Made by a program: the position numbers and the translations under genes
Part shown: piece after piece, positions 2,351 to 14,850 of the stretch
Layout of the letters: each line of letters begins with the position of its first letter
Numbering within the stretch: position 1 is the stretch's first letter
Assembly (NCBI GenBank): GCA_013044385.1
Contig: JABEUN010000019.1
Span: 1 to 64,000, forward strand
Origin: Acidimicrobiaceae bacterium
GTDB taxonomy: Bacteria; Actinomycetota; Acidimicrobiia; Acidimicrobiales; Acidimicrobiaceae
Direction: 5' to 3'
DNA length: 64,000 nt
Notes under the pieces: generated by a model
Told to the model about the DNA's origin: nothing
Seen by the model: the letters and a program-made list of their open reading frames with translations, nothing else
The model's database searches: none

Positions 2351-3215
2351 TGCTCACCTGCCTTTGCCCTGGCACGCCGTGCACGCCTCTAGGGCGGAAC
2401 TCAATTACATATTACCAACTAGTAATAAACCGCACAATTAGCTCAAGGACAAATCAACCGGATAACTATACAATCCTGCGCTTTCAGTACGCAGCGCAAC
2501 GCAGGAAGTGCATCTTGCGGTAACACGAATGTCACTCAACAGTCACCAGCTTCGTTTGCGCTCTAGAAATACCACAATGAGTATGAAATCCACCACGCGA
2601 TTCGGCTGTATTAATAACTCTGAACGACCGTAGAGCTAAAATAAATAGTGCCATCGTGCTGCTCTTTCTTACAATGGGAGGGCAGAACATTTCAACTTCG
2701 ACGCACAGAGTACAAATTTCCACAAACATTTGTTGAAATGCTTCTACATCTTGTGTAATCTTCGTTATGGCCGTTATTCCGGTCAGCTCGATTGTTCTGC
2801 GCTGGTCGCATGAAGGACCGAAAGGAGGTGGCAGCTAGTGCGCCTCTGGTAGCCAAATCAGTAGTGCCGGTAGTAACGACCTAAAATGCACACCACGAAG
2901 CTATGAGCTATAAGTTCGCTCATCATGCAGGAAACTCACTGGTCGTGTGCAGTCCGTCTCCTCAGCGGGACAAACAAGCCGAGCTGGGTACAAAGTTCCA
3001 GCGAAGCCGCCTCTCAAGCATTTGGACTATACACAGAATAAAACCAGAGGGTCGGGATGTTTTGGTGTTTCATACGGCACAGTATTTCGTAAGCAATCAT
3101 GGGACCTTTTACGGAAGGGGTCGGAACCGCTATACAGCGATCTCGGCCCCTTCGCCTATTGGCATATGGCGCTTTATATCCTGTAGGAGTTCGATTTGAT
3201 TACGGGGGACCACCG
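2351..3215. other. Intergenic region (865 bp), no supportable gene
   Basis: It separates the leftward acyl-CoA ligase gene from the rightward quinone oxidoreductase gene, so it should hold both promoters. Short open frames here have no family signature and poor start contexts. Two signals stand out: a perfect inverted repeat at 2410-2427 and a very strong ribosome-binding sequence (AAAGGAGGTG, 2821-2830) that leads into a GTG followed after three codons by a stop. I see no RNA gene or terminator. Confidence 0.6.
2410..2427. promoter_or_regulatory. Perfect 6-6-6 inverted repeat, candidate operator
   Basis: TATTAC at 2410-2415 and GTAATA at 2422-2427 are exact reverse complements around a 6-base spacer, 60 bases before the acyl-CoA ligase start. 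Size and symmetry suit a TetR- or GntR-type dimer site of the kind that controls fatty-acid genes. No cognate regulator gene is in the window. The repeat is seen; the function is a guess. Confidence 0.3.
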
Positions 3216-4199
3216 ATGAAATCAGTCCAAGTAACTGCCTACGGAGGGCCAGAAGTACTCCGTTGGGTCGACGTACCAAATTTCCTTCCCGAACCTGATC
3301 TCCTAAAAGTGCGCGTCGAGTTGGCATCGGTCAATTTTGCTGACACCATGGTCAGGCGTGGTCGCTATCTAGCATCACAGCCGCCTTTCACGACCGGCAT
3401 CGACTTCATGGGAGTAGTTATCGATGCCCCCCATGAACACGAAGCACTCCGTGGACGGAGAGTTATCGGATTCGGGGATGGAACGATGGCAGAAGAGATC
3501 TCGGTGGACGCCTCGATGGTTACTCCTATAGACGACTCCATCGATCCCCTTTTCGCCGCTGCAGCTCCGCTTGTTCTATGTACGGCCCTGGAACTGATCG
3601 ACAGGGCCGGACGTCTAAAGCCTGGCGAACGTGTTGCAATCTACGCTGCAAGCGGAGGCGTTGGACGGTCCCTGATAAGGCTCGCGCGCGCCTATGGTGC
3701 AGGGGAGATCTTCGCCCTGGTTGGCAATTCCGATAAGGCTCAGCAATCCCTTGAGGTCGGAGCGGACCACGCACTCATCTACAGAGGACCGGATGCGGTC
3801 GATTATTCCGCCGAGATCCTTTCCAAGACAGACGGACATGGAGTCGACCTCATATTCAATTCGGTGGCAGGCACGACCTTCGATTCAGACTTCAAGATGA
3901 TGGCAAACTTTGGAAGGTTGGTAGTCTTCGGCATCTCCTCGGGAGACCCCGGAAATGCTCCTTCCAACCTGCTACACCCGACCTCCCGTTCCGTCATTGG
4001 CTACTCCTTCTCTAACTTGCGCCGAAACCGTCCGTACGAAGTGAAACCCGTCCTGCGGCGTGCCGTAGATCAGCTCGAGCAGGGGATGGAGTTCGAAATT
4101 GCTGGTGTCTTTCCGCCGGTTGCAGCTGATAGGGCCCACCAGCTCCTCGAGTCAGGTGAGTCATCGGGCAAGATACTGATCGACTTTCGAAACCTTTAG
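3216..4199 (+). CDS. NAD(P)H:quinone oxidoreductase-like protein (zinc-free MDR family)
   Basis: A 327-residue medium-chain dehydrogenase/reductase of the quinone oxidoreductase (zeta-crystallin/QOR) type. The N-terminal catalytic domain (about 1-120) lacks the cysteine ligands of zinc alcohol dehydrogenases. The Rossmann domain carries the nucleotide motif ASGGVGRSL in its first third. Such enzymes reduce quinones or activated alkenes with NADPH. The ATG at 3216 is preferred because GGGGGA lies 7 bases upstream and homology begins here (MKSVQVTAYGGPEVLRW); the frame is open further upstream. It ends 71 bases before mftA on the same strand, so it may be functionally linked, although mftA appears to have its own promoter. 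Confidence 0.85.
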   Translation: MKSVQVTAYGGPEVLRWVDVPNFLPEPDLLKVRVELASVNFADTMVRRGRYLASQPPFTTGIDFMGVVIDAPHEHEALRGRRVIGFGDGTMAEEISVDASMVTPIDDSIDPLFAAAAPLVLCTALELIDRAGRLKPGERVAIYAASGGVGRSLIRLARAYGAGEIFALVGNSDKAQQSLEVGADHALIYRGPDAVDYSAEILSKTDGHGVDLIFNSVAGTTFDSDFKMMANFGRLVVFGISSGDPGNAPSNLLHPTSRSVIGYSFSNLRRNRPYEVKPVLRRAVDQLEQGMEFEIAGVFPPVAADRAHQLLESGESSGKILIDFRNL

Positions 4200-4270: not shown

Positions 4271-4426
4271 ATGGAGAATCAGATCGAATCGTCAGTTGCC
4301 AAAGACCCGCTACATCAAGAAGCCGAGCAACCGCATAAAACTGACGAAATAGGCACTGATCAATCAGTTCAGAAGAGTCCGATCGTATATGAGATCTCAA
4401 TCGACGGAATGTGCGGGGTCTACTAG
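4271..4426 (+). CDS. mftA: Mycofactocin precursor peptide MftA
   Basis: A 51-codon gene ending in the diagnostic mycofactocin core: the last eight residues are IDGMCGVY, followed directly by TAG. In the known pathway MftC decarboxylates and crosslinks the terminal Val-Tyr, which MftE then releases and which becomes the redox-active cofactor. The rest is a hydrophilic, mostly acidic leader with the YEISIDG stretch next to the core, where MftB should bind. It is longer than the roughly 30-residue mycobacterial peptide. It sits 6 bases before mftB at the head of the operon. The ATG at 4271 lacks a ribosome site but follows TACAAT by 6 bases, so leaderless initiation is likely. Confidence 0.97.
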   Translation: MENQIESSVAKDPLHQEAEQPHKTDEIGTDQSVQKSPIVYEISIDGMCGVY

Positions 4427-4432
4427 TCGGCC

Positions 4433-4696
4433 ATGAACTTAGAACTCCCCTACCGGATCTCTTCGAGCGTTTCGATCCGACAGGAGAGGTTTGGCGCACT
4501 CAGCTATAACCAACTCTCGAGAAGGTTGATTATGATCCAGTCAGAACGTATCGCCGGCCTCCTTGTAACTCTCGAGAGTTTCGACACCTTGGGTGATGCT
4601 CTTGCAGCGCATGGCATTACGGAAAATGACTCAACGTCTCTCTCTGCTCTACAACAACTAGAAGACTCGCAGGTGATATGTGTCTCGGTCGGATAA
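4433..4696 (+). CDS. mftB: Mycofactocin biosynthesis chaperone MftB (RiPP recognition element)
   Basis: An 87-residue PqqD-like RiPP recognition protein. MftB binds the MftA leader and delivers it to MftC. The family signature is visible: PYRISSSVSIRQERFGALSYN (residues 6-26) followed by a basic SRRLIMIQS segment, then a helical region (about 38-80) typical of the winged-helix fold. The last 17 bases overlap mftC, which implies translational coupling. The start context has no strong ribosome site; ATG 4433 is the natural start from family length and lies 6 bases after mftA. Confidence 0.93.
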   Translation: MNLELPYRISSSVSIRQERFGALSYNQLSRRLIMIQSERIAGLLVTLESFDTLGDALAAHGITENDSTSLSALQQLEDSQVICVSVG

Positions 4697-5834
4697 CTAC
4701 CCCACTCTGTCGGAAGAGATGCAGCACGGGCTAGCGGCCCCTATATGTCTCACCTGGGAGCTCACCTATGGCTGCAACCTCTCCTGCATCCACTGTCTCT
4801 CCAGCTCAGGACGGCGAGACCCAAACGAATTATCGACCCAAGAAGCGCTTAATCTCGTAGATGAATTCCGAGCCATGGGCATTTTCTACATAAACGTCGG
4901 CGGCGGCGAACCGACGATGCGCAAGGACTTCAGGGAGATTCTTTATCGCGCATCAGAAGTAGGTATCGGAGTGAAATTCTCAACAAACGGCTACTTCATC
5001 GATGACAATTTTGCCCGTGAACTTGCAAGTCTTGACTACACCGATGTCCAGATATCCCTCGACGGTTTTGACCAAGCCAGCAACGACGCAATCCGAGGTG
5101 CTGGTTCGTATGAGCGAGCTATCGCTGCCATGGAGTCACTTAGCAGTGCGGGAAAGACCGGATTCAAGATCTCCACAACCGTCAACAGGCACAATGCGGA
5201 TCGACTCGATGACCTTCTCAGCTTGGCAAATCATTACAACGCCCAGCTACGCGTGACGAGGCTCAGACCCTCGGGACGCGGTGCCCTAGTCTGGAACGAT
5301 CTAAGACTTGAACCTTCTCAACAGCGCAGCCTGTTCGAGTGGCTGTCCGAAAATCCAGGGGTGCTCACCGGTGACTCGTTTTTCCATTTGAGTCCATTCG
5401 GTGATCCCCTCCCAGGCCTGAACATGTGTGGGGCCGGCAAGGTGGTCTGTCTGGTGGATCCCGTTGGAGACGTATACGCTTGCCCCTTCACAATCCACGA
5501 ATCCTTCAGGGCCGGAACCGTCCGCTCCAGTGGCGGATTCAAAGCTGTCTGGTCGGACTCCCCATACTTCAAGTCCCTACGTCAGGACAAAAGTCCCACG
5601 TCATGCAGCGACTGCTCCGCATATCAGTCTTGTCAAGGAGGCTGCATGGCTGCTAAGTACTTTACGGGCCTGGAACTGCACGGTCCGGACCCGGAATGCG
5701 TATTTGGACGTGGCGAAACGAACTTGAAATTTGTCACGAGTCGACCCACGCCGGATCTTTCGCACAGCCGCAGAGTCAGGACTGCCAAACCCGTTGTACT
5801 TCGAAGACACGCTTCGGAACCCTTCGCAACCTAG
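4680..5834 (+). CDS. mftC: Mycofactocin radical SAM maturase MftC
   Basis: A 384-residue radical SAM/SPASM enzyme that acts on the C-terminal Val-Tyr of MftA (oxidative decarboxylation of Tyr, then a C-C bond to Val). The SAM-cluster motif is C32-x3-C36-x2-C39 in TYGCNLSCIHC, followed by the GGGEPTMR SAM-binding motif. The SPASM region has the auxiliary-cluster cysteines: MCGAGKVVC, YACPF, CSDCSAYQSCQGGC and a final DPEC. The GTG start at 4680 has AGGTG just upstream and lies within the end of mftB. The stop codon is immediately followed by the ATG of the next gene. Family assignment is firm from motifs and neighbours. Confidence 0.97.
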   Translation: MSRSDNYPTLSEEMQHGLAAPICLTWELTYGCNLSCIHCLSSSGRRDPNELSTQEALNLVDEFRAMGIFYINVGGGEPTMRKDFREILYRASEVGIGVKFSTNGYFIDDNFARELASLDYTDVQISLDGFDQASNDAIRGAGSYERAIAAMESLSSAGKTGFKISTTVNRHNADRLDDLLSLANHYNAQLRVTRLRPSGRGALVWNDLRLEPSQQRSLFEWLSENPGVLTGDSFFHLSPFGDPLPGLNMCGAGKVVCLVDPVGDVYACPFTIHESFRAGTVRSSGGFKAVWSDSPYFKSLRQDKSPTSCSDCSAYQSCQGGCMAAKYFTGLELHGPDPECVFGRGETNLKFVTSRPTPDLSHSRRVRTAKPVVLRRHASEPFAT

Positions 5835-7781
5835 ATGAAGCTACTCTCGCCGATACCGATCGGAGGTTACGCTTCGAAAAATCGCGTCATGTTCGGCCCT
5901 CATTTGACAAACCTCGGCCGAGACCGAGCCCCATCGGAGGACTGGCTGGCATACTTCGAGGCTCGTATTGTCGGAGGAGCTGGCATCGTGGTCACGGAGG
6001 AGGCGAGCGTACACCAATCCGATTGGCCTACCGAACGTTGGCTGTTGGCGGAAAGGTGTCCCTGGGGATGGAAACGCCTCGCCGATATGGCGAAAACGCA
6101 CGGAACGCTGATGATTGCGTCCATAGGACACGCTGGCGGAGAGGGAAGTTCCGCCTACTCCCAAAGGGCCATGCTCGCGCCCTCACCCGTGCCTGAGGTG
6201 GACCAGCGAGAAATGCCAAAAGAGCTCGAGGAGTTCGAAATCGAACTGCTTTTGGAATCGTTTTCAAGGGCGGCCGCTTCAGCAGTCGATGCGGGAATGA
6301 ACGGAGTAGAAATTAACTTGTCTACCCGAAGCCTGATAAGGCAATTCCTCTCGCCCCTTTCGAATCAGCGATCAGACGAACTCGGCTCGGACAGGTCACT
6401 ATTCCTACGCAAAATAGTTGCCGCCGTGAGAAGTGCCATTGGCTCAGAACTTTTCGCAGTCCGGTTGACCTTAGATGAGTTTGCGCCATGGGGAGGACTA
6501 GAGCCAGAGGCACTATGCACCATTGCCAAATCCATAGCATCTTCAGTAGATCTTTTCACCGTGACGTCTGGATCGCTCTATACCAAAGCTCGGCAAAGAC
6601 CTGACTTTCACACCCGTGAAGCCTTTAATGATCATCTAGCGACGCTGCTAAATTCCCATCTTGAACGTTCGACCCCGGTATTCCTGCAGGGTTCCGTCAC
6701 CTCGGCAGCCATTGCAGAAGTCTTGCTCACCGATCAGATCTGCGATGGGGTGGAGATGACACGAGCACAGATAGCTGATCCAAACATGGTTAACAATCTA
6801 ACCACAACACGGTCACCAACACCCTGCGTGCTTTGCAATCAATTCTGCATGGTTGGAGATTCACGCAACCTGCGGGTCTCATGCCTAGTCAATCCAGATG
6901 CGGGTTATGAGCGCTCAGAACCTGAAAAGCGCCGTGCCAGCCTACCGATGCGTAGGGTCTATGCCCCAGTGAAGGTGATCGGAGCAGGACCGGCCGGCAT
7001 GGAGCTCGCACTTAAGCTAGCTGAAGCCGGTAGAACGGTGGAAATCATTGACTCCTGTGAGGCTCCAGGTGGGCTACTTACGGCGCTCGCAGCGCACGGA
7101 GTAGGTGGGATCATGCTCAGACTCCGGGACTTCTATCTTTCAAACCTCGCTAGTTCGAAGGTTCGAATCGAGCTCGGTTACCGACTCGGAATCACAGAGC
7201 TAGAAGTGATGCTGAAGGATTCGGTTGTAGTTGAGGCAACCGGGGCGACCGGCTCAATGATTCCTGAAACGTTGCGCAACAGCGCATTCGTGCGACAGGT
7301 GTCCACCCAAGAGCTTGTTATGCAAAGGAAAATCCCAGCAGAACGGTCAGTCGTCATTGACGATCGAATTGGAAACCACGAAGCAGCTTGGGCAGCTGAG
7401 CTGGCTGCCCAATTTTCCGAGTCGACACATCTGGTTACACCCGACCCTTCTCCTCTCTCGCGGTTGAACACAGGCGACCTGATGGATGCGGTCTCCAGGT
7501 TGCGCAACAATGGCGTAATCACTCACACGCTCTCCAAGGTGAGGAGTAACAAATTGCCATCTGCAGTTACAATCGAATCTCTTTTTTCCGATGCAAAGCT
7601 GGAACTCCACGATCCGCTGCTGATCACAGTCGGCATACGAAATTCAGCAACAATCAGTCCCGACCTAGTACATCCAAAACTATTTCGCATCGGAGACTGT
7701 TTGGCCCCTCGCAACATGCATTATGCGATCCTTGAGGCACGCCGCCTTGCGGACCGCCTGCTTTCAACAGGTGCCGACTAG
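5835..7781 (+). CDS. Mycofactocin-system FadH/OYE family oxidoreductase, type 1
   Basis: A 648-residue flavoprotein built like 2,4-dienoyl-CoA reductase: an old-yellow-enzyme TIM barrel (about 1-325), a CVLCNQFC...C cysteine set for a 4Fe-4S cluster (about 330-350), and an FAD-binding domain starting with VIGAGPAGMELA (about 377-388). NADH-type reductases of this shape pass electrons through FAD, Fe-S and FMN. The barrel is divergent: the WGG motif after RQFLSP is lost, and the Tyr and His used by E. coli FadH (Tyr166, His252) align with other residues. It directly follows mftC with no spacer. Families of this kind are known companions of mycofactocin loci; the substrate is unknown. Confidence 0.88.
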   Translation: MKLLSPIPIGGYASKNRVMFGPHLTNLGRDRAPSEDWLAYFEARIVGGAGIVVTEEASVHQSDWPTERWLLAERCPWGWKRLADMAKTHGTLMIASIGHAGGEGSSAYSQRAMLAPSPVPEVDQREMPKELEEFEIELLLESFSRAAASAVDAGMNGVEINLSTRSLIRQFLSPLSNQRSDELGSDRSLFLRKIVAAVRSAIGSELFAVRLTLDEFAPWGGLEPEALCTIAKSIASSVDLFTVTSGSLYTKARQRPDFHTREAFNDHLATLLNSHLERSTPVFLQGSVTSAAIAEVLLTDQICDGVEMTRAQIADPNMVNNLTTTRSPTPCVLCNQFCMVGDSRNLRVSCLVNPDAGYERSEPEKRRASLPMRRVYAPVKVIGAGPAGMELALKLAEAGRTVEIIDSCEAPGGLLTALAAHGVGGIMLRLRDFYLSNLASSKVRIELGYRLGITELEVMLKDSVVVEATGATGSMIPETLRNSAFVRQVSTQELVMQRKIPAERSVVIDDRIGNHEAAWAAELAAQFSESTHLVTPDPSPLSRLNTGDLMDAVSRLRNNGVITHTLSKVRSNKLPSAVTIESLFSDAKLELHDPLLITVGIRNSATISPDLVHPKLFRIGDCLAPRNMHYAILEARRLADRLLSTGAD

Positions 7782-9823
7782 TGCAGCGATTCCCCAACCT
7801 ATTCCGAACGATAACTCTCGGACCAATTACCGTTCGAAACAGGATCGTCTTCTCTGCCCACCTCACTAACTTCGCTCAGAACGGAAACGTCTCTGATCAG
7901 CATGTCGCATATTACAAAGAGCGAGCACTCGGTGGAGTGGGCCTGATAATCACCGAGGAGCACTCCACACACGAGTCCGACTGGCCATACGAGAAGATGA
8001 TCCATGGATTCCGCCCAGAAGTGGTGAACGGATATATTGCGATCACCGAAGCAGTCCACCAGGCAGGATCCAGAATATTCGCGCAGATCAACCACAATGG
8101 TGCTCAGGGTACATCCAACTACTCACGACTACCTCTTTTCGGCCCATCTCCGAAGATGGACCCCATGTTCAGGGAAGTCCCGAAACAGGTGACCGAAAGT
8201 GACATCGTCGACATCATCTCCGGTTACGTCAAAGTCGCCGAACATGCACGCCTCGGAGGTTTCGACGGCATCGAACTTCAGTGCTCGCACTCTTCTATAG
8301 TCAGGCAGTTCCTATCACCTATTACTAACGAACGAACTGACCGGTGGGGTGGATCAATTGAGAACAGAGCCCGGCTCATGGTCGCCCTAATTGAAGCAAC
8401 ACGTCAGGCTATCGGACCAAACATGGCTCTTGGAATCCGAATTTGTGGTGACGAGATGGTCGAAGGTGGTCTGGAGATTGAAGATGCGGTAAAAGTGGCC
8501 CAAATCGCCAACGGTACTTCAATGGTTGACTACATCAACACCTCGATAGGAATCGCAACGCAGTCGCTCTACTCGATCGAAGCGTCGATGGCGATACCGC
8601 CCGGATATTCGCTCTTTATTCCCGCTGCCATCCGACAGGTCGTGGACATACCAGTTGTCGCCGTCGGCAGATTCAAGGATCCTAGCCATTGTGAGAGAGC
8701 GATCCGAGATGGCCAGGCTGATCTCGTGGGAGTCGTAAGGGGGCAGATTGCCGATCCCAATTTCGCAAAGAAGGCCAAAGAGGGACTAGAACACGAGATC
8801 CGCACATGCCTTAGCTGTAATCAGGAGTGCGTCGGCCGGATGGGCGTCAACAGATGGCTCGGCTGCATCGAGAACCCTGATGCCGGTAAAGAGGCAGCTA
8901 GAAACTCAACTGTCAACTCGGGCGGCTCGCTTGGAATCGGAATCGGCGCCTTCGCTGCATCGAACCAGCGGAGTGTTCGGGTAGCTGGTGCACCAAGGAG
9001 AGTAGCTGTTGTGGGTGCAGGCCCAGCGGGCTTACAGGCGGCCATCTCCTCGGCAAGACAGGGTCACTTAGTTGCACTTTTCGAAGCGAACGCAGAGGTG
9101 GGCGGAGCACTGACGTTAGCATCCAAGGCTCCCCACAGGGCCGAGTTGGCGGACCTCATCAGAAACCAGCTGTCTGAGCTTGGGAGAATGGGAGTATCTC
9201 CGAATACCAATCACACAATTACCCTCGATGAGATCCTGAATCTAACGCCGGATGCGATTGTTGTCGCTACTGGCTCGGTGCCTGAGCTGCCCTGGTGGAG
9301 CGTGGGCCATCTCGCTGATAACGAAATATCGACACCTAAAGTCACCAATCCAGCAACTGTTCTGAACGGTCTAGATAGACCTACTGGTCGGGTCGTCGTG
9401 TACGACGATCTTGGCTTCCATCAGGCGACTTCCGTTGCCGAACTGCTTGCTGAGAGGGGATGCCAGGTCGTGGTCGTGACACCACATCTGTCGGTTGGAA
9501 CTGATCTCGGCCTCACCTTGGACCTCGAGACTTGGCAGTTGAGAAATTCAAGGAATTCGGTGCGACAGGAAGTGGAGTGCGTAGCAGTCGGCATGACAGA
9601 GACATCGATCCTCCTCCAGCGCCATACCACTGGTGAAACATTGACCATCGAGGCAGACTGGGTTGTGGCCGTTAATCATGGGCGTTCCGAAAACACGCTT
9701 TACCGAAACTTACGACATGCGGGATGGAGCGAAGGGCTCTTCTTGATTGGCGACGCAGTGGCGCCCCGCAGGGCACACTCAGCCGTCATTGAAGGAGACT
9801 TAGTGGGAGCTCTCATACCATGA
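7781..9823 (+). CDS. Mycofactocin-system FadH/OYE family oxidoreductase, type 2
   Basis: A 680-residue paralogue of the preceding gene with the same order: TIM barrel (about 1-335) with intact RQFLSP...TDRWGGS motif, Fe-S cysteines in CLSCNQEC...C (about 344-365), and FAD domain starting VVGAGPAGLQAA (about 407-418). A second nucleotide fold contains VVVYDDLGFHQA, matching VVIDDRIGNHEA of its partner. The FadH catalytic Tyr and His positions read Ser and Ala here, so dienoyl-CoA reduction is unlikely. The GTG start overlaps the upstream stop by one base and the end overlaps the ETF alpha gene by four. An electron-transfer role with mycofactocin is inferred from context. Confidence 0.9.
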   Translation: MQRFPNLFRTITLGPITVRNRIVFSAHLTNFAQNGNVSDQHVAYYKERALGGVGLIITEEHSTHESDWPYEKMIHGFRPEVVNGYIAITEAVHQAGSRIFAQINHNGAQGTSNYSRLPLFGPSPKMDPMFREVPKQVTESDIVDIISGYVKVAEHARLGGFDGIELQCSHSSIVRQFLSPITNERTDRWGGSIENRARLMVALIEATRQAIGPNMALGIRICGDEMVEGGLEIEDAVKVAQIANGTSMVDYINTSIGIATQSLYSIEASMAIPPGYSLFIPAAIRQVVDIPVVAVGRFKDPSHCERAIRDGQADLVGVVRGQIADPNFAKKAKEGLEHEIRTCLSCNQECVGRMGVNRWLGCIENPDAGKEAARNSTVNSGGSLGIGIGAFAASNQRSVRVAGAPRRVAVVGAGPAGLQAAISSARQGHLVALFEANAEVGGALTLASKAPHRAELADLIRNQLSELGRMGVSPNTNHTITLDEILNLTPDAIVVATGSVPELPWWSVGHLADNEISTPKVTNPATVLNGLDRPTGRVVVYDDLGFHQATSVAELLAERGCQVVVVTPHLSVGTDLGLTLDLETWQLRNSRNSVRQEVECVAVGMTETSILLQRHTTGETLTIEADWVVAVNHGRSENTLYRNLRHAGWSEGLFLIGDAVAPRRAHSAVIEGDLVGALIP

Positions 9824-10773
9824 ATAGGGTTGAATTGGGCCCTAATATACCGGTCGTAATAATTACTTTGAGATCAGGAACGATGAGCAAGCAGGCCGCT
9901 TCTGCACTCTACTCTGCATCGACCAACCCAGCAGGTTACGAAATTATCATCGTAATGACAGATGAAAAAGAGCTGGCCAGACCACCCAGGGTAGCACAAC
10001 AGCCAATCCGAGCGCACCTCGTCAACGGAGGTAGAAGATGGCACTCCGTAGCCACACAAACACTAAACAGTCTGCGTCCCGAACTTCCCCATACCATTTT
10101 TGGTAATGACCCAGATTCCCAGATCTCCGCTATTGAGATCGCAAGAATGACTTCGGTGCCGATATGGACAGAGGTTACATCTGTAGGGGTTGACACGGTA
10201 ACTGTCTCCAGACGACACTCGACCCTGATCGAGACCTATTCGACCTCTGGTCCGAGTATCTTGCTGTTTCAGGCGACTCCGGTTGGACCGGGTGACCCGC
10301 TAGATCTAGCTCAGCTAAGGATGTTATCTGACCAGGGCCCTGATGCTAGGTCAGGTTACCAATCAGCCCAAACACTATCTAGCGCAGGAGCATCCGGAGA
10401 TCTTGGCGAGGCGGAGCACATTGTATGTGCTGGTATCGGAGTCGGGTCCGTGGAGGAGTACGGCAAGACGGTACAGTTCGCAGAAATAATCGGCGCAGCT
10501 GTCGGGGCCACTCGCCTTGTCACCGACGCCGGCTGGGCTCCACACGACCGACAGATCGGCACGACCGGCGCCGGTATCTCTCCATCGATCTATATAACGT
10601 TCGGAGTTTCAGGGGCCATCCAGCACCTAGCAGGTGTCGAACTTCCTGAAAAGACAATTTCGGTGAACATTGACAGAGGTTGTCAGATGATGAGGTCCAG
10701 CAGGATCGCCATCGTGGCCGACGCCCCGGCAGTACTGCACCAGCTCTTAGAACTGTTGAAGGGCGTACAGTGA
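9820..10773 (+). CDS. etfA: Electron transfer flavoprotein alpha subunit (mycofactocin-associated)
   Basis: A 317-residue ETF alpha/FixB homologue. The C-terminal FAD-binding domain is clear: IGTTGAGISPSIYITFGVSG and then AIQHLAG, followed by a SVNID segment and a final helix. The N-terminal third, which packs against the beta subunit, is divergent. ETF accepts electrons from dehydrogenases and hands them to an ETF:quinone oxidoreductase. ATG 9820 overlaps the stop of the OYE gene (ATGA). The beta subunit is encoded separately, after fixC and fixX, which is an unusual order. The position inside a mycofactocin operon suggests a dedicated ETF rather than the general fatty-acid-oxidation one. 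Confidence 0.92.
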   Translation: MNRVELGPNIPVVIITLRSGTMSKQAASALYSASTNPAGYEIIIVMTDEKELARPPRVAQQPIRAHLVNGGRRWHSVATQTLNSLRPELPHTIFGNDPDSQISAIEIARMTSVPIWTEVTSVGVDTVTVSRRHSTLIETYSTSGPSILLFQATPVGPGDPLDLAQLRMLSDQGPDARSGYQSAQTLSSAGASGDLGEAEHIVCAGIGVGSVEEYGKTVQFAEIIGAAVGATRLVTDAGWAPHDRQIGTTGAGISPSIYITFGVSGAIQHLAGVELPEKTISVNIDRGCQMMRSSRIAIVADAPAVLHQLLELLKGVQ

Positions 10774-10824: not shown

Positions 10825-12120
10825 ATGAAGGATAACTACGATGTGGTCGTAGTCGGTGCTGGCCCAGCGGGTTCTGCTGCTGCTATTGCTGCATCATCAG
10901 CTGGCGCAAAGGTACTCCTTGTCGAACGTGGACCGTTTCCCGGCTCCAAGAATGTCTACGGTGGAGTGATCTACCCGGGCATTCTCGAACGATACATTCC
11001 CGACTGGCAGAACGAGGTGCCAGTCGAACGATGGATTACTAGGCGGAGCACGATGTTGCTGTCAGGAGATCGTTCGGTGACGATCGATTACGACGACCCC
11101 ACCTGGAGAACGGGGCGCAAAAACGGAGCGACGGCGTACCGAGCTGACTTCGACCGCTGGCTCGCTTCCAAGGCCCAAAAAGCCGGTGCAGATCTCGTCT
11201 GCTCAACCCTAGTAAAGGGAGTCACCCGTGATGCGAAGGGTCGGGTAACCGGAGTTGTAACCGATCGCGACGGAGCTGAGATCAGCGGTGTGGTGGTCGC
11301 CGCAGATGGCGTCAACTCGCTTCTAGCAAAAGAAGTGGGGCTCTACCCGAACTTCAAAGCCGAAGATCTCACGTTGGGCGCCAAAGAAGTGTACCGACTG
11401 TCTAAATCTAGAATCGACTCGATCTTCTCGGTGCAGTCAGACTGTGGTGTCGATATCGAAATTCTCGGCGCCACTGGCGCCATTTCAGGTGGTGGCTTTC
11501 TCTACACCAACTCAGACACGATCAGTATCGGGGTGGTCCTTTCGCTCGCTGACCTCCGCAATGCCAAGCTTCGGCCAGAGAAAATAATCGCAGACCTTCG
11601 ATCACATCCGTCGATCGAGCCATTTTTCGCCCAGAGCGAACTAGTCGAATACTCTGCCCACCTGATCCCAGAGGCTGGCTACCGGAGCTGGCCAAAACTT
11701 TCTATCGATGGCATGGTGGTAGCGGGTGACGCTGCATCGACCTGCCTTGCAACCGGAATCTGGTTGGAAGGAGTGAACATGGCGATAGGATCGGGTTTTG
11801 TAGCTGGAGAGTTTGCTGCTTCTGCATCGAAGTCGGACAGGCCCGTCAACTTCAAATCCTATGACAGACTCCTAAAGGCCAGCTTTGTGGGTAAAAACCA
11901 CGTCAGGTTCAAGAACGCCCCCCACCTCGTTATGTCCGATTCCGTACAGAGGGGCTACCCTAAACTGGCAACGGAGTTTTTAGCCGGCCTGCTTACAGTG
12001 GGCGACCCCGTACCCAAAGCTGGGCTGGGAGAACTTCTAAGAAAAGCACGCAAGAGCTCAGGAATTGGCAGATGGCAACTGTTTCAGGATCTGATTGCTG
12101 GGTGGAGGACGTTCCGATGA
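10825..12120 (+). CDS. fixC: FixC-like flavoprotein, ETF:quinone oxidoreductase family
   Basis: A 431-residue FAD-dependent oxidoreductase of the FixC/ETF-QO family. It opens with VVVGAGPAGSAAA (residues 7-19) and continues with VERGPFPGSKNVYGGVIY, the FixC signature. The second FAD contact is MVVAGDAAS near 298. FixC transfers electrons from reduced ETF to quinone together with the ferredoxin-like FixX. The gene starts 51 bases after etfA with a short AAGAG element next to the ATG, and its stop overlaps the fixX start (ATGA). It probably sits at the membrane face, although no membrane helix is evident. Confidence 0.92.
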   Translation: MKDNYDVVVVGAGPAGSAAAIAASSAGAKVLLVERGPFPGSKNVYGGVIYPGILERYIPDWQNEVPVERWITRRSTMLLSGDRSVTIDYDDPTWRTGRKNGATAYRADFDRWLASKAQKAGADLVCSTLVKGVTRDAKGRVTGVVTDRDGAEISGVVVAADGVNSLLAKEVGLYPNFKAEDLTLGAKEVYRLSKSRIDSIFSVQSDCGVDIEILGATGAISGGGFLYTNSDTISIGVVLSLADLRNAKLRPEKIIADLRSHPSIEPFFAQSELVEYSAHLIPEAGYRSWPKLSIDGMVVAGDAASTCLATGIWLEGVNMAIGSGFVAGEFAASASKSDRPVNFKSYDRLLKASFVGKNHVRFKNAPHLVMSDSVQRGYPKLATEFLAGLLTVGDPVPKAGLGELLRKARKSSGIGRWQLFQDLIAGWRTFR

Positions 12121-12458
12121 AGGAGAACAAGGCCACACTGTTCGTCGATCCGTGGGCAGCCACTCTGTTAGGAACAGGCGCAGGGGGGATGTCAAACAGA
12201 CTCGATCTCTGTGACTTTCGAATAGCCAGTACCGCACATATCGTCGTAGACGGCGAGATTTGCAGAGAGTGCTCTACCCAAGCATGTGTCTGGGCCTGTC
12301 CCGCCCAATTGTTCGTGGTTCGCCACGATGGAGCTGTCGTATTCAACTACGAGCAGTGCTTCGAGTGCGGTACGTGCTACGTGGTGTGCAATCACGAAGG
12401 TGCTATCTCATGGTCGTATCCCGCTGGAGGGATGGGGGTCGTCTTTCATCATGGTTGA
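12117..12458 (+). CDS. fixX: FixX-like ferredoxin
   Basis: A 113-residue ferredoxin-like protein. Cysteines are arranged as C-x2-C-x4-C-x3-CP (CRECSTQACVWACP) and C-x2-C-x2-C-x3-C (CFECGTCYVVC), as in FixX and the Fe-S domain of ETF:quinone oxidoreductase. It should pair with the adjacent FixC to pass electrons to quinone. ATG 12117 is preferred: it overlaps the fixC stop and has GTGGAGG about 10 bases upstream. The frame is open for 15 more codons upstream, and an internal ATG at 12190 would give a more standard length. The last 8 bases overlap etfB. Confidence 0.9.
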   Translation: MKENKATLFVDPWAATLLGTGAGGMSNRLDLCDFRIASTAHIVVDGEICRECSTQACVWACPAQLFVVRHDGAVVFNYEQCFECGTCYVVCNHEGAISWSYPAGGMGVVFHHG

Positions 12459-13311
12459 ATTGGGTAAGGACGCCGTAATTGTAGTGGTGAAACATCAAGT
12501 TCGCCGGGCTGTACAGGCGGTGCAAGGTAGGCCAGTCGCGTCGGAATACGGACTGTCGACCGCCGACGTTTCAGCAATAGCGATTGCTCAGCAAATTGCC
12601 GTGGCCACCGGGACCAATCTCTACGTATGCACCGTCGGAGATGAGTTCACCGAAGCGACGTTGAGAGATGCTGCCGAGTTCGAGGTAGACGGACTAATAA
12701 GGATTCCGGCGCCGGAGGTTGGACCAGTGGTAAGGGCGGATCTCATAGCGCAACTGGCGATCCAGTTCTCCGCCACATATATCGTCACCGGTGACTACTC
12801 AACCGAATTTGGATCTGGAAGCACCCCGCTCCATCTGGCACAGCGAATGGATTGGACATTGGTGTCCTCCGTGATTGCCGTCGAGTCGTCCGAAGGAACT
12901 CCTGTTGGGTCACTTTGGCTCAAAAGGAGGTGTTTTGGTTCGTACATCGAAGTCGCTGAGATCACTGGTCCCGCCCTAATTTCGGTCGAGCCAACAAACT
13001 TCCGCCCGAAACGGTCGTCCCTTGGAAGTGCGATCGAAGCTACCCGACCGTCAAACGCCATGACGATTTTCCATGCCAGCTCAGCCATCAACGAGAGTGG
13101 TCCGATTAGCACCGCAGCCCAGCGATTCTACGCGACCTACACTTCAGCGCCAACAGGCGTATTGGAGCGCGAAAAACTATCCTCCATCCTCAAGCTCGAC
13201 ACGACAAGTGCAACTCCAATGGTGGTGGAACTATCTCCGGAAGTTGCAGCCAGACTTATCCTCGATACCCTAATTGAGTGGGAGTTGATTGGAATTGGTG
13301 ATGAACCTTGA
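12451..13311 (+). CDS. etfB: Electron transfer flavoprotein beta subunit (mycofactocin-associated)
   Basis: A 286-residue ETF beta/FixA homologue, partner of the alpha subunit encoded upstream. It starts VIVVVKHQVRRAV, matching the family's N-terminal strand and VK-V motif, and keeps the AIAIAQQIA and Rossmann-like core including TGDYSTEFGSGSTP. The conserved ETF-beta segment near residue 190 is recognisable but divergent, and the C-terminal about 70 residues are poorly conserved. The frame is open further upstream, but ATG 12451 fits homology and overlaps fixX by 8 bases. The end overlaps mftE. Whether it binds AMP or a second FAD (bifurcating type) cannot be told by eye. Confidence 0.85.
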   Translation: MVELGKDAVIVVVKHQVRRAVQAVQGRPVASEYGLSTADVSAIAIAQQIAVATGTNLYVCTVGDEFTEATLRDAAEFEVDGLIRIPAPEVGPVVRADLIAQLAIQFSATYIVTGDYSTEFGSGSTPLHLAQRMDWTLVSSVIAVESSEGTPVGSLWLKRRCFGSYIEVAEITGPALISVEPTNFRPKRSSLGSAIEATRPSNAMTIFHASSAINESGPISTAAQRFYATYTSAPTGVLEREKLSSILKLDTTSATPMVVELSPEVAARLILDTLIEWELIGIGDEP

Positions 13312-14077
13312 TTCATACACAGCGAAGGATCTAAAGGACCGAGATACTATCCCAACTCTGGTCCTGCCAATTGGATCGACTGAGCAGCACGGTCCCCATC
13401 TACCCTTAGGCACCGATACATTCATATCGATGGCGCTAGCGATTGAACTCAATAGAGTTCGGCCCAGTTCCACTGTTGTCGCTCCCCCGCTGCCATACGG
13501 CTCATCCGGCGAACACAAAGGTGTCTTGGGAACACTTTCGATGGGCCAAAATGCCCTGGAATTCCTGGTCGTGGAGCTAGTAAGGTCCGCCGACCAGTTT
13601 AATGGCGTCGCAATAGTAAGTGCACATGGTGGGAATATCGAGCCGATCGCACGAGCAGCCAGACTCCTAGCGACGGAGGGACGAAAGATCTACTACTGGT
13701 TCCCCACCGTAAAGGCTCTTACGAGTGCCGCTGAGAGATGGGCCATTGAGCCGGGATCCAAAGGACTATGGGACCCTGATCTACACGCCGGCAGGACTGA
13801 AACATCCATCATGCTGGCACTCACACCGGACTTGGTTGGCGAAACCGGCGGAGTAGTTGGTTCGCCTGCTAGCAGCCCAGGACTGATGCAGCGCATCAGA
13901 ACTGAAGGCGTTACCGCAATTTCCGACTCAGGAATAATCGGTGACCCAAGCGGAGCTAGCTACGAAGAAGGATGCGCCATACTCGCCGCATTTGCCGATG
14001 ACTTGATAACCGGATTCGACAAGTACCAGAATTCTGAACTGAACGGTCCCCTCTCCGACAAAGGTCGACGCGTGTGA
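13301..14077 (+). CDS. mftE: Mycofactocin precursor peptide peptidase MftE (creatininase family)
   Basis: A 258-residue metal-dependent amidohydrolase of the creatininase family. MftE cleaves modified MftA to free the C-terminal dipeptide that becomes the cofactor. Metal ligands are visible: E and H in GSTEQHGPHLP, D in LGTDTF, H in SAHGGN, and E in HAGRTETS. Upstream in-frame alternatives TTG 13289 and GTG 13298 exist; GGGAG at 13280-13284 suits the TTG best, so the true start may be 13289. The gene overlaps the etfB end, and its stop overlaps the next gene as GTGA. Confidence 0.94.
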   Translation: MNLDSYTAKDLKDRDTIPTLVLPIGSTEQHGPHLPLGTDTFISMALAIELNRVRPSSTVVAPPLPYGSSGEHKGVLGTLSMGQNALEFLVVELVRSADQFNGVAIVSAHGGNIEPIARAARLLATEGRKIYYWFPTVKALTSAAERWAIEPGSKGLWDPDLHAGRTETSIMLALTPDLVGETGGVVGSPASSPGLMQRIRTEGVTAISDSGIIGDPSGASYEEGCAILAAFADDLITGFDKYQNSELNGPLSDKGRRV

Positions 14078-14850
14078 AAGACAGAGTAGTAATAGTTACG
14101 GGGGCAGCAAGGGGCATCGGAAGAGAGTCGGCACTGCACCTAGCCGGGAGCGGCTGGACAGTGGTCGCCTGTGACATAGCTGCGGAAATCCCAGGTCTTC
14201 GGTATCCACTGGCAAGCCCGGAAATGCTCAGCTCGCTTGCAGAGCATGATCGAATTCATCCACTAAGGGCCGACGTGAGGTCTCCAATGCAGTTGAGCGC
14301 CGTTGTAGAACGCGCTCTGGAACTGGGAGAACTATGCGCTGCCGTGGCCTGCGCTGGAGTGATAAGCGGAGGCAAGCCAGCCTGGTTGACAGATCTGGAA
14401 ACTCACAGACTTACTTTCGACATCAACTATTTTGGTGTACTAAACCTAATAAACGTCGCCATGCCCGCGATTTTGGCCGCTGACGCCGAACATAGGAGAT
14501 CATTCGTTGCCATTGCCTCAGCCGCCGGCCACTTACCATTAGAGACCATGTCGGACTACGTTGCGTCAAAGCACGCAGTCATCGGACTGATCAGGACGTT
14601 GGCTCTCGACCTGAAAGGAACCGGAATCACTGCTAACACAATTTCACCAGGCTCTACTGACACCCCAATCCTGACAGCTAGCGCAGAGATCTTCCGCCTA
14701 TCATCTGCGGAAGAGTTCGCGACGCACCACATGACACAACAGCTGATATCAGCCTCCGAGGTCGCGTCGATGGTTGGATACCTACTGTCGGATCAAGCCG
14801 CTTCGATAACTGGAACCGACATACGAGTAGATGCCGGCATGCTCTCCTGA
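14074..14850 (+). CDS. Mycofactocin-coupled SDR family oxidoreductase
   Basis: A 258-residue short-chain dehydrogenase. It has the dinucleotide motif TGAARGIG (residues 9-16), the active-site YVASK and an upstream catalytic Ser. After the second strand it carries an insert with YPLASPEML, which matches the insert typical of mycofactocin-coupled SDRs, a family reported to hold NAD so tightly that an external acceptor such as mycofactocin is needed for turnover. It closes the operon; GTG 14074 overlaps the mftE stop. The substrate (an alcohol or hydroxysteroid-like compound) cannot be named. Confidence 0.92.
   Translation: MKDRVVIVTGAARGIGRESALHLAGSGWTVVACDIAAEIPGLRYPLASPEMLSSLAEHDRIHPLRADVRSPMQLSAVVERALELGELCAAVACAGVISGGKPAWLTDLETHRLTFDINYFGVLNLINVAMPAILAADAEHRRSFVAIASAAGHLPLETMSDYVASKHAVIGLIRTLALDLKGTGITANTISPGSTDTPILTASAEIFRLSSAEEFATHHMTQQLISASEVASMVGYLLSDQAASITGTDIRVDAGMLS

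Follow-up and report, generated by a model that had tools for sequence, protein, structure and literature searches.

We found that two adjoining genes in a 64,000-nucleotide stretch of DNA from an Acidimicrobiaceae bacterium (contig JABEUN010000019.1; the whole stretch is called the window here) belong to a mycofactocin cluster, and that across genomes such genes and MftD, the standard enzyme for making the redox centre of mycofactocin, almost never occur together. The two genes, OYE_1 (5835-7781, 648 residues) and OYE_2 (7781-9823, 680 residues), encode flavoproteins with the fold of FadH and trimethylamine dehydrogenase (TMADH). A search of the window's open reading frames with NCBIfam profiles gave the order mftA-B-C-OYE_1-OYE_2-etfA-fixC-fixX-etfB-mftE-SDR (SDR, short-chain dehydrogenase/reductase), with mftA, mftB, mftC and mftE each above the family cutoff. 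MftD, which a mycofactocin cluster of the canonical type requires, was not found anywhere in the window's genome (a 2.8 Mb draft, 95% complete). From the combined analysis we consider it fairly probable that OYE_2, helped by OYE_1, forms the centre of an alternative premycofactocin synthase replacing MftD. The original prediction, made from the window alone, had described the pair as electron-transfer partners; the mycofactocin cluster, the NCBIfam families, the exclusion of mftD and the candidate catalytic residue His170 were absent from it.

Among 147 related genomes, mftC was present in 63 and OYE_2 in 31. OYE_2 depends on mftC, because 30 of the 31 genomes with OYE_2 also carry mftC (the 31st is 74% complete) against 33 of the 116 without it; conversely, OYE_2 is found in 30 of the 63 mftC genomes. 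MftD was searched for in 80 genomes with mftC or OYE_2, a score over the TIGR03966 cutoff being taken as presence. Thirty-five genomes had OYE_2 only, 40 MftD only, one had both and four had neither; MftD was present in 1/36 OYE_2 genomes compared with 40/44 of the others (Fisher 6e-17, kinship ignored). Both cluster types occurred within each of seven families, and roughly half of the sampled mftC genomes near the window's lineage had the OYE type. On a tree of mftC, in which 16 mftC loci without MftD or OYE_2 nearby were labelled by genome, we counted 16 switches between the types, at least six of them forced on well-supported branches; this ruled out two separate cluster lineages in place of repeated swapping. 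Only G109 had both; one of its two mftC genes lies next to MftD, away from any OYE block, and the genome seems to carry both kinds of mycofactocin system (C27:162000-175806, locus L205; C54, L166; C1, L061). Of the four genomes with neither, G036 has OYE_1 next to mftC where the contig ends, and G117 has a fragment of MftD.

Another 50 OYE_2 genomes, drawn from named records and including Amycolatopsis, Prauserella, Frankia and metagenome-assembled genomes (MAGs), gave the same picture, MftD being missing from 46. The four exceptions were all Saccharopolyspora, two of them with a second mftC beside MftD. Across about 130 genomes, the OYE/ETF block (ETF, electron transfer flavoprotein) and MftD almost never coexist. 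We considered and rejected the possibility that the window's genome hides an MftD: the best candidate (C45:19331-20416) scored 316 bits as an L-lactate dehydrogenase of the LldD type and 255 bits as MftD (cutoff 471). Bias from the MftD cutoff is unlikely, since MftD reaches 590-615 bits in a sister genus from the same family.

The same separation was seen at the level of the locus. We surveyed 108 non-duplicate OYE_2 loci using score thresholds of our own, and none contained MftD. Where enough flanking sequence was available, OYE_1 was found in 56/70 loci, etfA and fixC in 77/85 and fixX in 75/85, while none of the 21 loci holding mftC and MftD together contained OYE or ETF genes of the block type. 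The usual order was mftB-mftC-OYE_1-OYE_2-etfA-fixC-fixX-etfB-mftE, followed by the SDR gene and mftF, with the OYE/ETF block usually lying between mftC and mftE, in the place of mftD. With mftE in the cluster and MftF found in most OYE_2 genomes, the pathway goes on beyond the missing step.

To place the active sites, we aligned the pair with full-length E. coli FadH (2,4-dienoyl-CoA reductase), five relatives of solved structure and 66 members of the two families (32 OYE_1, 34 OYE_2); FadH residues are numbered as in 1PS9, without Met1. The pair shares with FadH the fold, the CX2CX3CX11C cluster motif and the FAD domain, but has lost both catalytic residues. The position of Tyr166 is occupied by Ser in OYE_1 (Ser166) and OYE_2 (Ser172), as in 32/32 and 34/34 relatives, and that of His252 by Ser247 and Ala259 (Ser, Gly or Ala across OYE_1; Ala, with one Thr, across OYE_2). 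The original prediction had read these losses by eye, and an aligned Tyr and His, which would have spoken against it, were found in neither protein; the losses describe two whole families and not two odd proteins. Its other readings also held. The WGG loop is gone from OYE_1 (a gap in 31/32 relatives), whereas all four iron-sulphur cysteines (331/334/338/350 in OYE_1, 343/346/350/362 in OYE_2) and the glycines of the FAD motif are present in 66/66 sequences, both window proteins having the GxGxxG motif. The VVIDDR/VVYDD segment forms a second Rossmann fold at the place of the FadH NADPH motif IIGCGGIGFD, which is replaced by VVIDDRIGNHEA and VVVYDDLGFHQA in the window proteins and gone from both families. 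With both catalytic residues and the NADPH motif missing family-wide, a role as NADPH-dependent enoyl reductase is unlikely for either protein, in line with the original prediction.

Loss of Tyr166 and His252 alone is no sign of lost catalysis, because histamine dehydrogenase (HDH) and 6-hydroxypseudooxynicotine (6-HPON) amine oxidase lack both. OYE_2 shares Ser at the Tyr166 position with these two enzymes, and the NADPH motif is lost from TMADH, HDH and 6-HPON amine oxidase as it is from OYE_1 and OYE_2. OYE_2 looks catalytic since all FMN ligands tested (Gln102, Arg220, Arg297, Arg320) are kept and invariant, and an invariant His170 (34/34) occupies the position of TMADH His172. Only OYE_1 looks degenerate. 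Its FMN site has Ser96 and Ser287 and no WGG loop; across the family the FMN-ligand Gln is replaced by Ser, Ala or Gly and the phosphate-side Arg of the GR motif by Ser, Gly or Ile, each in 32/32 sequences, with the equivalent of Arg220 retained. OYE_1 presumably lacks FMN. Judged by sequence, an electron exit through the 4Fe-4S cluster without an NADPH motif, as in TMADH and HDH, is present throughout (cysteines in 66/66).

OYE_2 belongs to TIGR03997 (mycofactocin system FadH/OYE family oxidoreductase 2). TIGR03996 (oxidoreductase 1) is the best family for OYE_1, which does not reach its cutoff and is hence called OYE_1-like; it groups with other OYE_1 sequences from the same cluster position (100% SH-aLRT) and diverges faster, with 45% identity to its same-genus relative compared with 59% for OYE_2. 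Both proteins matched FadH (1PS9) by sequence (E 2e-28 for OYE_1, 1e-68 for OYE_2). Modelled singly with AlphaFold2 (pLDDT 87.6 and 84.4), they were full-length FadH/TMADH-fold proteins, matching 1PS9 with Z 48.1 (rmsd 2.6, 614 aligned) and Z 46.3 (rmsd 3.1, 627 aligned), and matching NCR, TMADH, 6-HPON amine oxidase, HDH and FadH over their full length with Z 46-50; for OYE_2 against the three amine-oxidising enzymes Z was 47-48. In a tree with TMADH and HDH, OYE_1 and OYE_2 formed separate clades of their own (100 and 96% SH-aLRT), as might be expected from an old duplication. The OYE_1/OYE_2 heterodimer raised in the original prediction is plausible.

MftD carries out oxidative deamination (PMC7491314), in a step described as aerobic (PMC8406134). 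If the cofactor is made in a genome with mftA, mftB, mftC, mftE and an MftF homologue but without MftD, something else must carry out this step. We propose OYE_2, with OYE_1, as an oxygen-independent AHDP dehydrogenase because the block that stands where MftD would be includes a protein related to amine-oxidising flavoenzymes, together with its own ETF and ETF-quinone reductase. AHDP would be made from MftA by MftC and MftE, as usual. OYE_2 would then oxidise this alpha-amino lactam on FMN, with hydride passing to N5 and His170 as candidate base, and hydrolysis would free ammonia to give the alpha-keto amide premycofactocin. We infer that electrons would run from FMN through the 4Fe-4S cluster to EtfAB, FixC/FixX and quinone, using neither NADP+ nor O2; TMADH likewise passes electrons through its 4Fe-4S cluster to ETF. 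OYE_1, the diverged paralogue whose FMN site is degenerate and whose iron-sulphur and FAD sites are intact, would probably be a structural or electron-transfer partner. The wider proposal is a second, evolutionarily unrelated and O2-free premycofactocin synthase, a heteromer of one catalytic and one degenerate FadH-fold subunit that would act as a dehydrogenase on a peptide-derived amine, with a dedicated ETF/ETF-quinone reductase, and that would have been swapped with MftD many times in actinobacterial lineages; it seems to us about as likely as not.

Several observations weigh against a synthase built on OYE_2. A strict independent-pairs test on well-supported branches, which is underpowered, gave six pairs, three to four concordant and none discordant (median p 0.25). 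The true exceptions are Saccharopolyspora dendranthemae and S. endophytica, where an OYE block with a single mftC (loci L148 and L149) is accompanied by an orphan MftD elsewhere (G565:C2:237801 and G566:C6:139530); these orphans may be what is left of a second cluster since lost. OYE_2 and MftD are both missing from G018 and G038 (G038 is 73% complete); in G018 (91% complete), locus L167 is an mftB-mftC-mftE cluster without MftD and without the OYE block. Lactate-dehydrogenase-like MftD paralogues occur in many OYE_2 genomes, the window's included, and could substitute. Furthermore, Cys30, Tyr169, Trp264 and Asp267 of TMADH are not conserved in OYE_2: Cys30, the site of 6-S-cysteinyl FMN, is Leu28 (Leu in 34/34; Leu24 in OYE_1), and of Tyr169, His172 and Asp267 only His172 is kept, the window protein having Gln and Ser at the other two. 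The OYE clades are also not nested inside the TMADH/HDH amine dehydrogenases. On Cys30, Tyr169, Asp267 and the tree we rejected membership of the pair in the TMADH family.

A different role for the OYE/ETF/FixCX module, which we regard as unlikely but the strongest competitor, is that of a mycofactocinol dehydrogenase, a counterpart of MftG feeding the quinone pool, with another enzyme carrying out the MftD step. MftG links mycofactocinol oxidation to respiration, and its absence from about a quarter of mftC genomes has been raised as an open question (PMC11778925). An ETF/ETF-quinone oxidoreductase route would suit re-oxidation of mycofactocinol, and MftG was over cutoff in 0/36 OYE_2 genomes. 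Replacement of MftG was our first hypothesis, as the window's genome has none, and lost ground once the MftD-type clusters of the same order were found to lack MftG as well. No mftC genome of that order, OYE-type or MftD-type, had MftG over cutoff, and all matches over cutoff fell in one family (f89). The block tracks loss of MftD better than loss of MftG, because MftG is missing from both cluster types of the order, and the MftG-counterpart role leaves deamination of AHDP unexplained in MftD-less genomes.

Less likely again, the module may do both steps, or OYE-type clusters may make a variant redox centre for which MftD is not needed. The invariant active-site motifs of OYE_2, QCSHSSIVR and NTSIGxATxSLxxIEASM, are unlike those of any characterised relative, which would suit such a role. 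Against it, MftA retains the standard IDGMCGVY end and both mftE and the coupled SDR are present; moreover, Saccharopolyspora erythraea is reported to make methylated mycofactocin although clusters of the genus lack mftD (PMC11162802), an orphan MftD being possible there. That both proteins are electron relays only, neither TIM barrel being catalytic, is very improbable: the lost FadH residues, the adjoining ETF genes and the degenerate FMN site of OYE_1 agree with it, but FMN ligands and an invariant pocket in OYE_2 would be needless in a pure relay, and at least one cluster (L052) has OYE_2 with no detected OYE_1. The electron-transfer role given to the pair by the original prediction accordingly fits the genes that follow, for ETF and FixC/FixX, while its restriction to partners only does not fit OYE_2, with its FMN ligands and invariant His.

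MftD was known not to be universal (Haft 2011, PMC3023750). NCBIfam names the OYE families and the ETF subunits by their mycofactocin association, that is, by context only. BGCFlow (2024) reported 17 Saccharopolyspora clusters without mftD and with TIGR03997, and mftD-less clusters misread as ranthipeptides (PMC11162802); that study covered one genus at cluster level, without a mechanism, a genome-wide test or the ETF block. Among the papers we could search, none linked mycofactocin to electron transfer flavoprotein. What this analysis adds is the genome-wide exclusion of MftD and its recurrence from family to family, the inclusion of the ETF block in the unit, and the reading of OYE_2 as catalytic and OYE_1 as degenerate. 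MftD, predicted to share its step (AHDP to premycofactocin) and cluster place with the OYE block, is an unrelated protein of the FMN alpha-hydroxy-acid oxidase type that no ETF genes accompany. If OYE_2 does replace it, the missing biosynthetic step of MftD-less mycofactocin producers would be filled, a function would be given to two NCBIfam families that have long lacked one and to their ETF, the cofactor's redox centre could form without oxygen, and genome-mining tools should not require mftD.

Table 1. Genes of the mycofactocin cluster in the window, and codons discussed in the text
Feature	Position	Strand	Basis
mftA, mycofactocin precursor peptide, C-terminus IDGMCGVY	4271..4426	+	TIGR03969 26.0 bits, cutoff 25; sequence
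mftB, peptide chaperone	4433..4696	+	TIGR03967 57.8 bits, cutoff 33
mftC, radical SAM maturase	4680..5834	+	TIGR03962 541 bits, cutoff 265
OYE_1, FadH/TMADH-fold flavoprotein, probably accessory subunit	5835..7781	+	best family TIGR03996 493 bits, cutoff 627.9
Ser166 codon of OYE_1 (FadH Tyr166 position)	6330..6332	+	alignment
OYE_2, FadH/TMADH-fold flavoprotein, probably catalytic subunit	7781..9823	+	TIGR03997 836.3 bits, cutoff 793.15
His170 codon of OYE_2 (TMADH His172 position)	8288..8290	+	alignment; 34/34
Ser172 codon of OYE_2 (FadH Tyr166 position)	8294..8296	+	alignment; 34/34
etfA, mycofactocin-associated ETF alpha subunit	9820..10773	+	best family NF038209 158 bits, below cutoff 240; PF00766
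fixC-like ETF:quinone oxidoreductase flavoprotein	10825..12120	+	FixC subfamily 276 bits, below cutoff 610; PF21162 ETF-QO quinone-binding domain
fixX-like ferredoxin	12072..12458	+	NF011993 FixX 54 bits, below cutoff 166; 4Fe-4S domains
etfB, mycofactocin-associated ETF beta subunit	12286..13311 (mechanical open reading frame; real start probably 12451)	+	best family TIGR04503 74 bits, below cutoff 200; PF01012
mftE, peptidase releasing AHDP	13289..14077	+	TIGR03964 220 bits, cutoff 172
mycofactocin-coupled SDR dehydrogenase	14074..14850	+	TIGR04504 276 bits, cutoff 250

Upstream of mftA, the window encodes a quinone-oxidoreductase-like protein of the medium-chain dehydrogenase/reductase (MDR) type (3099-4199), and homologues lie upstream of mftC in several genomes of the same family (L071, L072, L076, L042, L044, L045, L073). 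A divergent MftF homologue is encoded away from the cluster in the window's genome (G000:C45:27452-28855, 206 bits, cutoff 280), about 7 kb from a lactate-dehydrogenase-like FMN protein. A search of viral contigs for relatives returned none. Locus L052, in G325, has mftC, a divergent OYE_2, etfA, fixC and fixX, and the genome carries eight other FadH-like paralogues. Finally, two public MAG records titled Bifidobacterium breve (L108, L118) have OYE_2 clusters; the titles look wrong, because the mftC of L108 groups with Acidimicrobiia.

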